This document shows positions 21,476-28,712 of a DNA stretch of 51,917 nt, in pieces. How positions within the stretch are numbered: the stretch's first letter is position 1; each line of letters opens with the position of its first letter. Below the pieces are notes generated by a model, which made no database searches, was not told the DNA's origin, and saw nothing but the letters and a program-made list of their open reading frames with translations. Source of the stretch: a delta proteobacterium MLS_D. GTDB lineage: Bacteria > Desulfobacterota > Syntrophia > Syntrophales > UBA2210. Where the stretch lies: positions 1 through 51,917 of the forward strand of contig LQBH01000005.1 in assembly GCA_002030015.1 (NCBI GenBank), read 5' to 3'. The translations under genes were made by a program, and so were the position numbers.

Positions 21476-22303
21476 TCACAGGTAACTGTGAAGACCGGCA
21501 AGAATATAATTAACTCCCAGATACGTGAAAATCATGGAGATAAAGCCGATTATAGAGATCAGCGACATTTTCATGCCCGTCCATCCCCTCGCGATACGGG
21601 CGTGCAGAAACGCGCCATACACCAGCCATGTGATAAGCGACCAGGTCTCTTTCGGATCCCAGCCCCAGTATCGCCCCCAGGCCCGGTCGGCCCAGGCGGC
21701 GCCCGTTATAATTCCCACCGTCAACAGCACGAACCCGATTGAAATGATCCGGTGTGTTGCTTCATCAAGGAAAGACGCAGCGGGAAGCGCACGGGCGAAC
21801 CCGGCAGTGGCGGAATGCTTCAGGAGATACAGAACGCTCAACCCGAAAGCGATGGTAAAACAGGCGTACGCGAGGAACGAACTGATGACGTGGCTTATAA
21901 GCCAGTTGCTCTGCAGGGCGGGAATCAACGGTTCTATGCGGCAGTCCACCGTACCGGAGAGAGAGACATAGGCCAGTATGATAAAGGCGAAAAACAGCGC
22001 AATAACACCGACAAGACTGGTCCTGTACGTTTTTTTCATAACGAAAAAGACAAACACTATGGACCATGAAAAAAAAACCATGGATTCGTAAAAATTCGAC
22101 AACGGGGCATGACCGATGCCGAGCCGGTATGATTCTATCCACCGGACAATCAGCGCCGACGAATGAAGCAGAAGGCCGGCGACGGCGGTGACCCCGGCCA
22201 CTTGATCGGGTCCGGTTTTTCGAAAAACGAGCGCGACAAGGTACATAAACGCCGCGAAAAAATAGATGAATGTTACTATGCTCACAAAAAACGCGTCGTT
22301 CAT
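21476..22303 (-). CDS. ccsA: cytochrome c biogenesis protein CcsA (System II)
   Basis: The 275-residue membrane protein has about eight helices. The tryptophan-rich heme-handling motif WGRYWGWDPKETWSLITW and the following LVYGAFLHARIARGW are diagnostic of CcsA/ResC/CcmC family proteins. Periplasmic conserved His residues are also present. With ResB it forms the System II heme exporter and cytochrome c synthetase that attaches heme to CXXCH motifs outside the membrane. Its start overlaps the resB stop by 4 bases (ATGA). The multiheme cytochrome gene lies just beyond resB on the other strand, an obvious client. Confidence 0.94.
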   Translation of the reverse strand: MNDAFFVSIVTFIYFFAAFMYLVALVFRKTGPDQVAGVTAVAGLLLHSSALIVRWIESYRLGIGHAPLSNFYESMVFFSWSIVFVFFVMKKTYRTSLVGVIALFFAFIILAYVSLSGTVDCRIEPLIPALQSNWLISHVISSFLAYACFTIAFGLSVLYLLKHSATAGFARALPAASFLDEATHRIISIGFVLLTVGIITGAAWADRAWGRYWGWDPKETWSLITWLVYGAFLHARIARGWTGMKMSLISIIGFISMIFTYLGVNYILAGLHSYL

Positions 22304-23625
22304 GATATTGTTCCGTCCTGAAACCTCGCGATGGAAGCGTTCATTTTCTTCTCGAGAATATCCCTGTGCTTGTCGGCATGCGCGGCGACGGAAATTTCAT
22401 GCCCGTCGTCGACCTTCGCAATCCTCACCCAGACCCGTACATGCGAGCAAAAGAGGTGCATTATGAATCCCGCCCCGATAAGAAGAAAACCGAACCAGAC
22501 GAGAGGAGCGCCGGGATCCTTGTTCACCTGAAGCCCGGAATAATAAACCGTGTCAAAATCGCGAAAGGTGAAAATCCTGGAACCTTTCCGTACCGGTAAA
22601 TCTTTCGGCATCCAGAATATGTCATGTTCCATGCCGGGCCGAATGAGCACACCGAGTACGGCCGGACCCCGCCCCATGAAATCGGGATCGAACCTGGCCA
22701 CGGCCAGTGAGAGATCGTCGCCCGGCAGGGCCTGTTTTTTCATCCTGTTCATACGCACGGTGCTTTCTTCGTTCGAGGCCTCGTCGATCACGTCGACCCG
22801 GAAATTGTACCCCCCGGCGATACCGAACGTCGCCTGTGAAAATTTGAGGCCTCCGTGAGTAAGAGGATGATTTACCCTGATTGTTTCGTTCACAATGGTT
22901 TCACCGCCACTTTGTATCGCCAGGTCCGTCTTGTATTCTCTGGGTGTCCCTGATTCATAATACGTTACGGTAAATTTTTCACAGGCGACGTCGAAACCGA
23001 GGTCTACCGTCCCCTGTCCGCCGAACAGCGTCACCCTGTCCGATTTTCCTCCTTCCACCAGCGTCATCTGGCCGCTGAACCCCCATACAGCCCCGATAAG
23101 TCCGCCGCCAAGTATCACGAGCACGCTGCAATGTACGAGGGTCATACCGAAGCGGGAGAACCGGCCCTTTTCCGCAAAAAAGTAAGACGCGTCTCCCTTT
23201 TCCGCCCGGATCGGAGTACCTGCCAGGGACACCAGGAACGACGACATCTGTCGTTCGAGATCGTCACGATTGTTCCGGCTGCAAAACCGCTTCCTGATCG
23301 GCGACGAAACGAACGGCAAATCATCGGTCGTCGATTTCTTTCGAAACGCCAGGCCGGCAACGCGGGGAATCTGCCTGAACGTACAGGCGGCGAGATTCAC
23401 CGACAGCATGAACAGCAGGAGAGTAAACCACCACGAATGGTACATGTCGAACGCGTTGAAAAAGGTCAGAACGGAAAGAAGTTTACCCCCGAACATTTCT
23501 TCATACCTGTCGGGAGACGCACCCTGCTGCACGATCGTGCCGAAAATCGACGTGGCGGCGATTGCGAAAAAAAGAAATATGGTGAGCCTGACCGAGGAAA
23601 GAAATGTATATATTTTTTTCTGCAT
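22300..23625 (-). CDS. resB: cytochrome c biogenesis protein ResB (System II)
   Basis: The 441-residue protein has three N-terminal membrane helices (IYTFLSSVRLTIFLFFAIAA, HSWWFTLLLFMLSVNLAAC, FGMTLVHCSVLVILGGGLIG), a large periplasmic domain and a final helix (VWFGFLLIGAGFIMHLF), the ResB/Ccs1 layout. TFxS-VRLTIFLF at the N-terminus is a family hallmark. It works with the overlapping CcsA. The start at ATG 23625 is about 246 bases from the divergent octaheme cytochrome gene, so maturation factors and client share an intergenic region. Confidence 0.93.
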   Translation of the reverse strand: MQKKIYTFLSSVRLTIFLFFAIAATSIFGTIVQQGASPDRYEEMFGGKLLSVLTFFNAFDMYHSWWFTLLLFMLSVNLAACTFRQIPRVAGLAFRKKSTTDDLPFVSSPIRKRFCSRNNRDDLERQMSSFLVSLAGTPIRAEKGDASYFFAEKGRFSRFGMTLVHCSVLVILGGGLIGAVWGFSGQMTLVEGGKSDRVTLFGGQGTVDLGFDVACEKFTVTYYESGTPREYKTDLAIQSGGETIVNETIRVNHPLTHGGLKFSQATFGIAGGYNFRVDVIDEASNEESTVRMNRMKKQALPGDDLSLAVARFDPDFMGRGPAVLGVLIRPGMEHDIFWMPKDLPVRKGSRIFTFRDFDTVYYSGLQVNKDPGAPLVWFGFLLIGAGFIMHLFCSHVRVWVRIAKVDDGHEISVAAHADKHRDILEKKMNASIARFQDGTIS

Positions 23626-23871: not shown

Positions 23872-25506
23872 ATGTCGATGAGAATGCACCATGGTTTTCG
23901 AGTGATGGAACGGGCTGCCACCGCCTTCATTGCAGTTCTTGTAATGATGTCATTCTGTTGGGTCACCACGGCCGCGGGGAAACCGGTCACTCAGCAACTA
24001 CCTTCCGTTTCGGAACCAACCGCAGACCACAGCATACTCGAAGAATTGGACCAGCCCATGGAACGGGGGCCGGATGTAACCCGGACATGCCTTTCCTGCC
24101 ACACGGAGGCCGGAAATCAGGTACAAAAGACCATCCACTGGACCTGGGGCGAAGGTGAAATGGGAGAGGAGGGTCTGGGTAAAGCCCACATTATTAATAA
24201 TTTTTGAATTTCCCCGCGAACGAACTGGTGCAGGTGTACCAGCTGCCACGCGGGTTATGGTTGGAAAGATGATTCTTTCGATTTTTCAGAACAAACCAAC
24301 ATGGATTGCCTTGTATGCCACGAACAGTCCGGACAATATAAAAAATTTCCGACTGCCTGCGGCCATCCGGCCTACGAAGAAAAACAATTCGGCGGCAAAG
24401 TTTTTGAACCGGTAGATCTTAACGCCGTTGCGAAAACGGTGGGGAAACCGGGCCTTCAGAACTGCGGCGTGTGCCATTTCTTCGGCGGCGGCGGCGACGG
24501 CGTCAAGCACGGCGACCTTGACTCGTCTATCTTGTCCGCGGATCGCGACCTGGATGTTCACATGTCTAAACAGGGAGCGAATCATACCTGTACCGCCTGC
24601 CACACGACCATCAATCACCAGATGGCGGGCAGATATTACACCGAGAGGGCGCCCCTTGAGCGCCGCATGGCGATGCCTGAAGACTACGGCAACCGCATTT
24701 CATGCGAATCCTGTCACGGGGCGACACCCCATGAAACCATGGCGATACTCGATGATCATACCGCCAAGGTTTCCTGCCAGGCGTGCCATATTCCCCGTTA
24801 CGCCAGGGGAGGCATAAGCACGTTGATGTGGTGGGACTGGTCGACGGCGGGCAAATTCACCGATGACGGCAAGCCGATCGTCACAACAAATGAGGACGGA
24901 AGGCCAACGTATCACACCATGAAGGGGGATATGACCTGGGCCGAAAATGTCGTCCCCACGTACGCCTGGTACAACGGCAGCATGGAATACGTAACCATGA
25001 AGGATACCCTGCCGAAAGACGGTTCTGTTGAAATCAACCGCCCGCTCGGCAGTTACGATGATCCAGAGTCGCGGATTTTCCCCTTCAAGTATTATGAGGG
25101 ACGCCAGGTGTACGATGCCGGGGCAGACCGGCTGGTCGTCAGCAAACTGTTCGGTCCCAAGGGCAGTGGGGCCTATTGGTCCGATTACGACTGGCAACGT
25201 TCCGTGGAAGTCGGCATGGCCGAGTCGGGCGAAGAGTTCAGCGGGCAGATCGGGTTTGTCGACACAGCGATGTACTGGCCCATAACCCACATGGTGGCGC
25301 CGAAAGAAGATTCTCTTCAATGTGCGGCATGCCACGCCCGCGACGGCAGGCTCGCCTCCCTTCCGGGTTTTTATCTGCCGGGGCGGGACCGCGTCTCCTG
25401 GATCGATACTATCGGCTGGTCACTTTTCGTTCTTTCGATTATCGGGGTCTTGATACACGGGCTTCTTCGGGTTGTTTTCCGAATGGCAAGGAGCAAAAAG
25501 CAATGA
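23872..25506 (+). CDS. membrane-anchored octaheme cytochrome c (OTR-like) with in-frame UGA, predicted selenoprotein
   Basis: The gene reads as one 544-residue protein if TGA 24205-24207 is decoded. The signal sequence (about 1-36) is followed by eight CXXCH heme sites at residues 73, 122, 146, 198, 240, 278, 302 and 484, and a C-terminal membrane helix (514-536). KTIHWTWGE, CTSCHAGYGWKDDSFDF and GGGGDGVKHGDLDSS place it with octaheme tetrathionate reductase (OTR)-type cytochromes, which reduce tetrathionate, nitrite or hydroxylamine. Homologues as I recall them read NNFCI where this gene reads NNF-UGA-I (residue 112), and Asp209/Lys212 fit the active-site Asp/Lys pair. The frames before and after the TGA are the same, so this is not a frameshift. 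A SECIS-like hairpin follows. The start ATG 23872 has GGGGG seven bases upstream. A plain nonsense mutation is the alternative. Confidence 0.85.
24213..24254 (+). promoter_or_regulatory. bacterial SECIS-like hairpin after the in-frame UGA
   Basis: The lower stem is CCCGCG (24213-24218) with CGCGGG (24249-24254), then a symmetric 6x6 internal loop. The upper stem is CUGGUGC (24225-24231) with GUACCAG (24236-24242), 7 bp with one G-U pair, closed by an AGGU loop (24232-24235). The loop starts 24 bases after the UGA and has G in its second position, within the limits I recall for bacterial SECIS elements. UGCAGGU is also found in the E. coli fdhF element. Confidence 0.72.
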
Positions 25507-26114
25507 AACGAACAATTTATATGTACAAGGGTTTTGAGAGAATCTGGCACTGGCTTCAGGCGGCCCTGATTATATTGCTTCTGCTGACAGGTTTTGAGAT
25601 CCACGGAAGTTACGAATTGTTCGGATACCAGGGCGCCTATGTCGTACATATTCAGGCCGCGTGGATACTGTTGGGACTGCTCGTTCTTGCCTTGTTCTGG
25701 CACATTACCACCGGTGAATGGAGGCAATACAAACCGACTCTGAAAAATCTGGACAAGATGGTGCGCTGTTACATGGTGGGAATATTCCTTGATGAACCGC
25801 GTCCCTACACGAAAACTCCCGAGACAAAGCTGAACCCCCTTCAGAAGCTCAGCTACCTGGGTGTTTTGCTGTTTATCCTTCCGATTCTTATCATCAGCGG
25901 CCTGGCTTGTTACTTTTACAATGATCTCCAGGCTTGGGGACTGTCCGTGGGATTCGGATCACTCGCGATCCTTCACACCATCGGCGCTTTTCTCATGCTC
26001 ATCTTCCTGGTGGTCCACGTTTACATGACGACGACCGGGCACACCCCTCTTGCCTACACCATCGCGATGATCACCGGCCGGGAGGAAGTACCCGACGATA
26101 ACAGGGTTTGCTGA
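25503..26114 (+). CDS. cytochrome b561/formate dehydrogenase gamma-type membrane protein
   Basis: The 203-residue protein has four to five membrane helices (ALIILLLLTGFEIHG, VVHIQAAWILLGLLVLALFWHI, YLGVLLFILPILIISGLACYF, ILHTIGAFLMLIFLVVHVYM). His residues in the first helix region (ERIWHWLQA), VVHIQ, FWHITTG and VVHVYM are placed to hold b hemes, as in the b561/FdnI group. Its ATG overlaps the octaheme cytochrome stop (ATGA), with AAGGAG upstream, so the two are made together. It probably passes electrons between the quinone pool and the anchored octaheme subunit. Direction is not certain, but a reductase role is likelier. Confidence 0.88.
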   Translation: MKRTIYMYKGFERIWHWLQAALIILLLLTGFEIHGSYELFGYQGAYVVHIQAAWILLGLLVLALFWHITTGEWRQYKPTLKNLDKMVRCYMVGIFLDEPRPYTKTPETKLNPLQKLSYLGVLLFILPILIISGLACYFYNDLQAWGLSVGFGSLAILHTIGAFLMLIFLVVHVYMTTTGHTPLAYTIAMITGREEVPDDNRVC

Positions 26115-26259: not shown

Positions 26260-26287
26260 TTGACAAAGATGCCTCCCGTTGTATAGT
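26260..26287 (+). promoter_or_regulatory. sigma70-type promoter
   Basis: TTGACA (26260-26265), a 16-base spacer and TATAGT (26282-26287) are close to consensus and precede the GTG start of the thioredoxin-fold gene by 30 bases. Confidence 0.75.
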
Positions 26288-26317
26288 CGATTACTCTCGA
26301 GAAAGGACTCCAGGCCC

Positions 26318-26974
26318 GTGAGAATTGATGACGAAACTCTTGAAACGATCCGTTCCCGTTTGAAAACCGAACTCACGGACTCAGCGGAAATTCTGCTCTT
26401 CACCACCGACCGCATGACAGGTTCCTGCGACAACCGGGGTTACAACGACTTCGCCGACCAGTTGCTGGACGCGATTGCCGACGTTGATCGCCGTCTGTCC
26501 GTGCGACGCCTCGATCTCTTCGGCGATGAAGGACGAGCCTTCGGGCTGTCCCTTTCCCCCACCCTTCTCATCGGTGCGCAGGAACGCTTTCCCGTACAGT
26601 TTCACGGCGCGCCCACAGGCAACCTGGGGGGAGCTTTCATCGAAGCGATCCTCATGATTTCCCGGAGAGATCCCGATCTCACACCGGAATCAAGACGCCT
26701 GCTGGGAACAATTGCCCGACCCGTGACAGTGGAATGTTTCGTCGCACCGGACTGCGCATACTGCCCCGCCGCCGTTGACCTTGGCGCCCGAATCGCTTTC
26801 TCCTCCGGTGATGTTATCACGTTCCGGTCCATCGACATCACCCAGGGAATGGATCGCGCTCTTCTGTTCGACGTGGCCTCGGTGCCTCACCTGGTCATCG
26901 GTGAAGATCCGTCAACCGCACTTGTGGGCGTTCCGCGGGAGGAAGCGCTGGTCGGCGCCCTGCTGGGCCGGTAA
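26318..26974 (+). CDS. double thioredoxin-fold protein (PDO/glutaredoxin-like)
   Basis: The 218-residue protein looks like two fused thioredoxin folds, the layout of protein disulfide oxidoreductases. The second fold keeps a redox motif, CAYC (Cys146, Cys149) in ECFVAPDCAYCP, followed later by the cis-Pro region ASVPHLVIGE. The first fold has GLSLSPTLLIG at its cis-Pro position but only a single Cys (TGSCDNRGY), so it is probably redox-inactive. No signal peptide is seen. The start is GTG 26318, because the promoter -10 overlaps any earlier start. It follows the cytochrome operon but has its own promoter. It may serve disulfide reduction in the cytoplasm. Confidence 0.75.
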   Translation: MRIDDETLETIRSRLKTELTDSAEILLFTTDRMTGSCDNRGYNDFADQLLDAIADVDRRLSVRRLDLFGDEGRAFGLSLSPTLLIGAQERFPVQFHGAPTGNLGGAFIEAILMISRRDPDLTPESRRLLGTIARPVTVECFVAPDCAYCPAAVDLGARIAFSSGDVITFRSIDITQGMDRALLFDVASVPHLVIGEDPSTALVGVPREEALVGALLGR

Positions 26975-26988
26975 TCATGTCCCGCCGT

Positions 26989-27195
26989 TCATTTCCTGTC
27001 TTGAGTCCCGCCGTCTTTCGGTGAATAATAGGCACAGTCCATCCCCGAACTTTCTTCCACCTCCATACAGGGAAGCCGCTTTGACTTGAACCCCATGGCG
27101 CGGCAGCCATAGGGAAAATCACGGTCGTGGGTGATATAAAAATGACGGCAGAGAAAGCAGTGAACAAAGTGGTTGACATGCATTCCGCGGCTCAT
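26989..27195 (-). CDS. small cysteine-rich conserved protein, unknown function
   Basis: The protein is about 68 residues from ATG 27195 (AAAGGGAAC just upstream); ATG 27219 in the same frame is the alternative. The pattern C-x2-C-x-HFYITHD-x-DFPYGC-RAMGFKS-x4-PC-x11-DC-x-YYSPK resembles a family of tiny proteins common in anaerobes that have CxxC and PYGCRxxGFKS blocks. I know no function; four spaced cysteines suggest metal binding. It converges with the thioredoxin-fold gene, with 14 bases between. Confidence 0.7.
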   Translation of the reverse strand: MSRGMHVNHFVHCFLCRHFYITHDRDFPYGCRAMGFKSKRLPCMEVEESSGMDCAYYSPKDGGTQDRK

Positions 27196-27257
27196 GAGTT
27201 CCCTTTCTCCGCAATCCATTCCCCTGTACCTGAGCCCGGTGCGGGAAATTCCTCTGT

Positions 27258-27821
27258 TTACTCCCGGAAACGGGGACGCTCAGCCCCGGACCTGTCGGAA
27301 AGCGAGCGTCGCCACCCGCCGTCACGCCGGACCGGGACCATACCCGGGGGCGGTGTGGCAAGCATGCCTGCTTCCATGACACCCCAGAATCCCGTCAGAA
27401 CTGCCTCGGCTGCGTCATGACGAAGCGACGTGGGCCGTCTCGCGCCGGACCATTCGATGATAATCCGGGCCGCCGCGAGGGCATTTCGTTTCGCGTCGGC
27501 CCCGCTCCGCCTGTCGCGAGGCAGAATCAGCGTTTCGCGCCAGGCTTCGGCGGTGATCTGAAGAATCCCGATCTTGCGCTTTTCCGCCTCGCTGATCCAG
27601 AGCGACGCCAGGTCGCCTCCGCCCTCGATGACCAGCCAGGCAAGGCCCGGTTCGCCTTCCAGGATTCCCGGAATGCCCCGGCGCAGGCGGACCCGGTTCC
27701 CGAAATTCCGGGAGCCGTACCAGCGAAGCCTGCCGTCGGCACCATAGAGAGCAAGGCCGGTCCTGACACCCAGGTCCACCGCAAGCAACGATTGTTTCTC
27801 TTCTTTCCCGCCGGAGGTCAT
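27258..27821 (-). CDS. RuvC/RNase H-fold protein, hypothetical
   Basis: The 187-residue protein begins with LLAVDLGVRTGLALYG, the first strand and acidic residue (Asp16) of a RuvC-like nuclease fold. WLVIEGGGDLASLW supplies the second acidic position, and LRHDAAEAVLTGFWG near the C-terminus matches the last acidic helix seen in RuvC (DAAEA-type). The basic middle (LPRDRRSGADAKRNALAAAR) could bind DNA. A Holliday-junction-type or related structure-specific nuclease is plausible but unproven. ATG 27821 has AGGTGA upstream. It sits next to the REP/RAYT cluster and close to the MrfAB DNA-repair pair. Confidence 0.65.
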   Translation of the reverse strand: MTSGGKEEKQSLLAVDLGVRTGLALYGADGRLRWYGSRNFGNRVRLRRGIPGILEGEPGLAWLVIEGGGDLASLWISEAEKRKIGILQITAEAWRETLILPRDRRSGADAKRNALAAARIIIEWSGARRPTSLRHDAAEAVLTGFWGVMEAGMLATPPPGMVPVRRDGGWRRSLSDRSGAERPRFRE

Positions 27822-27844
27822 AACAATTCACCTGCAGAAAACCC

Positions 27845-28712
27845 GGGCGGTTCACGAACCGCCCTCATAGTGCGTCCTGTCTCCCCGAAACTATACTATT
27901 CTCCCTGCCCCGCCGGAACGCCACCGTCTACCGCCGATTGCGGCGTCAAACTGCCGAATATTCGGGGTCCTTTTCCCACCCTGCGGGGTTGTCCTGTATG
28001 TACTGACGAATGCTCGTCATGTCGTCATCATTCCGAATAATATGTTCATAATAATTTCTCTGCCATACCGGGACACCCGGCGTCCCCCGCAGGGAATTGA
28101 CTCCCTTTGTGGAAACGGTCTTGAACGCGCCCACCAGCCCTCCTATGGGCTTTCGCGACGCCGCCTGTTCCGTAGGGGCGGTTCGCGAACCGCCCGTGCT
28201 TTCATCGTTGATAATGATAACACCGTGGAGGTGATTCGGCATAACGACCAGTTCTACGGTTTCTACGTAGTCGTATTGCTTTCCAAGCCATTCCCAGGCG
28301 CGGGAGACAACGCGACCCAGGTCATTCAGGACCATCTGACCGTTCACAATATCACCCAAGAGGCATTTTCGTTTTTCCGTACAGATGGTTATGAAATAGG
28401 CACCCGCAGAGGCATAGTCATACCCCTGCAACCGGATGGATCGTCGGTTTGGTTTCTGATTGGGAATGGTTGTCATATTCCTGCCAAAACGCGGGCGGTT
28501 CACGAACCGCCCCTGCACACAATTAACAATGGCCCGAAAATCACAGGTAACACCGGGCAATATGGCAGAACGTTCCCCGCATTTCAGATCAACGGCTCAG
28601 ACGAACAACCCTTGCGGGCGGTTCGCGAACCGCCCCTACAAACATTGAACGATGGTCCGTGATAATCATAGCCGTTGCCTCGTCTGCCGTAGGGGCGGTT
28701 CACGAACCGCCC
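27845..28712. repeat. cluster of five REP-like palindromes
   Basis: A 20-bp palindrome, GGGCGGTTC(A/G)CGAACCGCCC, occurs at 27845-27864, 28176-28195, 28493-28512, 28616-28635 and 28693-28712. Several copies are embedded in TAGGGG...CCCCT(A/G)CA context. They surround the RAYT transposase gene and one lies inside it. The centre alternates AC and GC. Confidence 0.9.
27946..28476 (-). CDS. REP-associated tyrosine transposase (RAYT, IS200-like Y1)
   Basis: The 176-residue protein has the RAYT N-terminus (NRRSIRLQGYDYASAGAYFI), the HUH metal motif in MPNHLHGVIIIN (His82, His84) and a catalytic-Tyr region WQRNYYEHIIRN (Tyr142/143) with a terminal IQDNPAGWEKD typical of the family. Such enzymes are single-copy domesticated transposases that mobilise REP hairpins. 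ATG 28476 is preferred; a longer frame to 28560 runs back into REP sequence. The palindrome at 28176-28195 lies in frame and encodes residues of TGGSRTAP (about 94-101), between the HUH and Tyr regions. The gene looks intact. Confidence 0.92.
   Translation of the reverse strand: MTTIPNQKPNRRSIRLQGYDYASAGAYFITICTEKRKCLLGDIVNGQMVLNDLGRVVSRAWEWLGKQYDYVETVELVVMPNHLHGVIIINDESTGGSRTAPTEQAASRKPIGGLVGAFKTVSTKGVNSLRGTPGVPVWQRNYYEHIIRNDDDMTSIRQYIQDNPAGWEKDPEYSAV

Follow-up and report, generated by a model that had tools for sequence, protein, structure and literature searches.

An octaheme c-type cytochrome gene at 23872-25506 (+) of the window (the whole stretch of 51,917 nucleotides that was analysed) is interrupted by a single in-frame UGA at 24205-24207 (+), and we consider it very probable that this gene encodes a membrane-anchored periplasmic cytochrome of the octaheme tetrathionate reductase (OTR) family in which the UGA is decoded as selenocysteine (Sec) and which works by the mechanism proposed below. 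Close to the catalytic heme the family conserves a single free cysteine; the UGA falls on this residue and, as far as can be judged from sequence comparison, is almost certainly read as Sec.

Gene and protein

The frame runs from the ATG at 23872 to a TGA at 25504-25506, and its translation has one internal stop, the TGA at residue 112 of 544. The ORF check thus agrees with the earlier note, which had described one gene with its frame unbroken across a single UGA at these coordinates. When translated through the TGA, with this codon set as Cys for the profile match, the protein scored 597.6 bits against TIGR04315 (cut-off 375; profile positions 1-440 of 440), and a phmmer comparison with the OTR of Shewanella oneidensis (1SP3) gave E=1.6e-108 over residues 59-494, so the family membership proposed in the earlier note stands. 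Past the TGA, dN/dS against the copies of the same genus was 0.08-0.11, which points to purifying selection persisting 3' of the UGA.

The protein has eight CXXCH motifs, the second of which (CTSCH, 24235-24249, +) lies 10 residues past Sec112. Counting along the alignment, residue 112 corresponds to Cys64 of 1SP3 chain A, the number that the earlier note had given for a conserved Cys at this site. Lys212 (24505-24507, +) is aligned with Lys153 of 1SP3 and is invariant in 14 Sec-type proteins; Lys153 is presumably the Lys ligand of the active-site heme. A Lys ligand outside a CXXCK motif has been described for OTR (PMC12285233), and the window protein has both the eight CXXCH motifs and an aligned non-CXXCK Lys of this kind. 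A hydrophobic segment in the translation suggests an N-terminal signal peptide (23872-23976, +; boundary approximate), and a locally confident model helix together with hydrophobic sequence points to a C-terminal transmembrane helix at residues about 509-543 (25396-25500, +). The predicted structure as a whole had a mean pLDDT of 47, too poor for placing Sec112.

UGA and Cys in homologous genes

Homologues were gathered at order and phylum level, from genomes that are mostly metagenome assemblies, and from named genome contigs. Among 156 homologous loci, the codon at the position of residue 112 was UGA in 57 (a count of loci rather than species, because some organisms stand twice through repeat records, e.g. 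L085/L118 and L017/L153), while 98 loci encode Cys there and one encodes Thr; there were 45 (37 + 8) distinct 60-nt sequences 3' of the UGA. The comparison with other genomes that the earlier note had recommended thus returned both UGA and Cys, and the UGA genes carry a conserved SECIS-like hairpin. The UGA forms are hosted by Desulfobacterota/Thermodesulfobacteriota and related lineages, including cultured isolates such as Thermodesulfatator autotrophicus S606 (L118), and the gene-bearing relatives, two further genomes of the genus and one of the family, all have the UGA.

Some genomes were seen to hold Sec and Cys paralogues of OTR together: G333 and G473 have one of each, and G285 has two Sec forms with differing hairpins and one Cys form (loci L091, L092, L052, L053, L055, L093 and L098 for the three genomes). 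The locus with Thr (L107), alone among the full-length homologues, lacks both Cys and Sec at this site and sits on a long branch, and a betaproteobacterial-type Cys OTR (L181) was found on a metagenome-bin contig labelled Bordetella parapertussis, a label that is probably wrong.

SECIS-like hairpin

The hairpin of the window gene (24225-24242, +; CUGGUGC-AGGU-GUACCAG) has a 7-bp stem (24225-24231 with 24236-24242), and its pairing was found in 16/16 distinct sequences counted. The earlier note had placed a SECIS-like hairpin 24 bases downstream of the UGA; the hairpin is a real pattern across genomes, but it is the apical loop AGGU (24232-24235), not the hairpin, that starts at 24 nt. Published rules for bacterial SECIS elements ask for a loop of 3-9 nt, a stem of 4-16 bp, a G at loop position one or two and a distance of 16-37 nt after the UGA (PMC13188914), and the window hairpin, with 7 bp, AGGU and 24 nt, falls within them. 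Such a hairpin was present in all 57 UGA genes, in two designs that both obey these rules. Type 1, to which the window hairpin belongs (49 loci), has the stem CUGGUGC/GYACCAG and a loop of AGGU or AGUU, always 24 nt past the UGA, and type 2 (8 loci) has the stem GCAACGA/UCGUUGC and the loop GGC at 21 nt.

The rarity of the hairpin within the window was rejected as stand-alone evidence, as 5% of the TGA triplets in the window were followed by a 7-bp hairpin and 13% by a 6-bp one under the same spacing and loop rule. Folding z-scores were -2.3 (76 nt) and -0.7 when the stretch was shortened to 44 nt. A covariation test of the stem gave weak support, with one double change only, because the stem is nearly invariant. 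It is the recurrence across genomes, with the UGA at one codon in 57 loci, that in our reading puts the combination of hairpin and UGA far beyond chance.

The hairpin and the codons for NWCRCTS overlap, and codon usage there differs between the two forms. Among distinct genes with the RCTSCH motif, the codon of Arg121 was AGG in 34/34 Sec genes versus 1/61 Cys genes (Fisher p=5e-25), that of Thr was ACC in 34/34 versus 39/61, and that of Ser was AGY in 34/34 versus 34/61. Cys120, whose TGC (24229-24231, +) is within the hairpin, is replaced by Pro or another residue in Cys-type homologues. Eight residues past Sec, the Sec proteins have Cys in 49/57 cases (all type 1) and Ala in 8/57 (all type 2), never Pro, whereas the 99 non-Sec proteins have Pro in 52, Ala in 18 and Cys in none (Cys in 49/57 versus 0/99, Fisher p=2e-32). 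Both p-values ignore shared ancestry and are descriptive, because the sequences are related. Taken together, these patterns indicate that the RNA hairpin constrains the protein sequence of the Sec forms.

The same association could also mean that Cys120 is a functional resolving thiol, the partner of Sec in a selenenyl-sulfide, and not a by-product of the hairpin. Its occurrence with Sec in 49 of 57 proteins and in none of 99 others, and the eight residues separating U and C, are in keeping with such a pair. We regard it as possible but doubtful, since Ala takes this place in the eight Sec proteins of hairpin type 2, and the RNA constraint is sufficient to account for Cys120 because its TGC closes the stem beside the loop and the neighbouring Arg121 is fixed as AGG. 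We prefer to read Cys120 as a by-product of the hairpin.

Selenocysteine decoding in the genome

Searching the genome for selA, selB, selC and selD, as had been proposed earlier, returned the complete set. SelB (346.7 bits, above the cut-off), SelA (579.9 bits) and SelD (380.4 bits) were all found, together with two tRNA-Sec genes with the anticodon UCA. The selD gene has an in-frame TGA of its own (around 1531-1533 of L038, G000:C22), followed by GCC TGC AAA, which we take to be the usual Sec position of SelD. The two tRNA-Sec genes (L040 and L041; G000:C24 and G000:C53) are nearly identical and differ in their flanks and acceptor-end bases. SelB scored above the cut-off in 33/35 genomes with a Sec form, the two others being drafts (96% and 81% complete), and in 34/35 genomes with Cys forms only. 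Co-occurrence with SelB was therefore rejected as a discriminator between Sec and Cys forms, because nearly all Cys-only genomes have it as well; SelB is necessary, not discriminating.

Reassignment or leaky suppression, with the UGA read as Cys or Trp, would also yield a full-length protein, and a Cys read-through product would fit the family. We find this very unlikely: the same gene ends in TGA and UGA is therefore not globally reassigned, each of the two UCA-anticodon tRNAs is a tRNA-Sec, and the constraint imposed by the hairpin is specific to the UGA genes. Two further explanations seem to us scarcely credible. That the TGA marks a mutated or decayed Cys-type OTR gene (a nonsense mutation or pseudogene), or is a sequencing error in such a gene, is suggested by the single base separating TGA from TGC or TGT and by the draft state of the assembly (70 contigs), but this is contradicted because the UGA recurs at one codon, in 57 loci from many independent assemblies and cultured isolates, and also by the low dN/dS past the TGA and the synonymous conservation of the hairpin. 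A programmed stop, in which the functional forms would be the 111-residue fragment and a C-terminal protein with a start of its own, has a 401 aa ORF from the ATG at 24301 to recommend it, but that product would have neither heme motifs I and II nor the signal peptide, and the conservation of residues 113-142 (between the UGA and this ATG) and the codon bias in the hairpin would be left unexplained.

Evolution of the Sec forms

With selenocysteine as the preferred reading of the UGA, its history was followed in a tree for which the columns of the trait itself were removed, built by a quick method and with no bootstraps. Four Sec/Cys changes are needed, all four of them forced by supported branches, and their direction is not given by the counts; the tree thus demands at least four switches between Cys and Sec. 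A large clade with the type 1 hairpin (29 tree rows) is entirely Sec, the type 2 Sec proteins are placed among Cys proteins, and four further Sec proteins with a type 1 hairpin (L091-L094) stand in the other, soluble-type group.

A distant octaheme homologue with an in-frame UGA was detected in two genomes (L095/L190 and L096/L191, 70% identical; L095:2000-3304). This family scores 199 bits against TIGR04315, under its cut-off, and the contexts of the UGA are TETYUAPPNT and LHSYUAPPNT. The UGA is on the same alignment column as the conserved Cys, where all other members have Cys, and inspection by eye suggests, in each of the two sequences, a small CGGR-loop hairpin about 35 nt past the UGA. 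As it comprises two sequences, this putative second UGA octaheme family is a lead, not a result. We lean, with some reservation, towards the view that exchange of Cys for Sec beside the catalytic heme has been recurrent, at least twice in OTR, where the two SECIS hairpins are unrelated, and once more in the family of L095 and L096, each OTR hairpin fixing the residue at +8, so that an RNA signal would have rewritten a position near the active site.

Gene neighbourhood and proposed function

The cytochrome forms an operon with a cytochrome b561 gene (Ni_hydr_CYTB; 25503-26114, +; PF01292, E=3e-25), whose ATG overlaps its stop codon (ATGA). In loci with enough flank, a cytochrome b561 gene follows immediately downstream in 52/56 Sec loci and 72/94 others. 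On the other side, the divergent neighbour encodes ResB of system II cytochrome c maturation (22300-23625, -; PF05140, E=6.9e-86), followed by a CcsA-type cytochrome c assembly protein (21476-22303, -; PF01578, E=2.1e-51), and ResB is at the same divergent place in the loci of six relatives (L010, L011, L015, L017, L110 and L153, repeat genome records included). A Pfam search of the three ORFs past the cytochrome b561 gene (26279-26974, 27417-28040 and 28042-28662; within window positions 26279-28662, +) gave no match.

Following established bacterial Sec decoding, SelB with Sec-tRNA(Sec) would bind the hairpin at 24225-24242 while the ribosome is at the UGA, and failing decoding by SelB and the hairpin, synthesis would end with a fragment of 111 residues that has a single heme motif. 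The protein would then be exported and receive its hemes, probably from the neighbouring ResB/CcsA pair, and the gene order suggests that it exchanges electrons with the quinone pool via the overlapping cytochrome b561. Sec112 would take the place of the one free Cys that is conserved close to heme II, the Lys-ligated catalytic heme, and its position suggests a catalytic role for the thiol or selenol at residue 112. In the Shewanella OTR the catalytic heme is heme II, and tetrathionate, nitrite and hydroxylamine are reduced (PMC4484225). By analogy with that enzyme only, the selenol probably speeds the reduction of a sulfur- or nitrogen-oxyanion, for example tetrathionate. The most likely role is that of a periplasmic terminal reductase, fed with quinol through cytochrome b561, with the selenol aiding reduction at heme II; Sec incorporation itself, the heme-side geometry, catalysis and substrate are what we infer here.

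Relation to known systems and significance

The Shewanella OTR (1SP3) shares with the window protein the eight CXXCH motifs and the aligned pairs Cys64/Sec112 and Lys153/Lys212. In contrast, it has Cys and not Sec and is described as soluble, while the window protein ends in a transmembrane helix and its gene overlaps that of a cytochrome b561. In Thermosulfurimonas dismutans, TDIS_1882 and TDIS_1883, an octaheme cytochrome with a nearby cytochrome b gene, have been proposed to form a membrane-linked periplasmic reductase (PMC4911364); the pairing matches that of the window, although Sec is unmentioned in that paper and the likeness lies in gene pairing and description.

The earlier note knew of no multiheme c-type cytochromes as an established selenoprotein family, a claim that fails because a review published in May 2026 lists both TIGR04315 and ExtKL (PMC13188914). 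The former appears as 'Tetrathionate reductase family octaheme c-type cytochrome' (WP_331457571.1), a 'GenBank annotated' selenoprotein family. The paper treats it in a table row only, leaving its SECIS, distribution and evolution undescribed, and by this row WP_331457571.1 is likened to the window protein as a Sec form of TIGR04315. The ExtKL multiheme cytochrome (NF040886), listed there as a selenoprotein family too, is likewise a multiheme c-type cytochrome but of a different family, absent among the profile matches of the window protein. TIGR04315 is thus already known as a selenoprotein family and is not a new kind. A search of open-licence papers found no study of Sec-OTR beyond PMC13188914, and within that literature the Cys/Sec switches, the two SECIS designs, the codon constraint and the second octaheme UGA family appear to be undescribed.

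What was a bare table entry for TIGR04315 is now backed by sequence evidence from 57 loci and by a cultured source, Thermodesulfatator autotrophicus. The results also carry a warning that such respiratory genes may be split or truncated when sulfur-cycling bacteria are annotated. With its two designs, the hairpin offers a clean natural case in which an RNA element constrains a protein close to the active site, and as related bacteria have Sec and Cys versions of one enzyme, the contribution of Sec is directly measurable. If true, the pairing of a selenol with the Lys-ligated active site of a multiheme protein would be unusual in catalysis.
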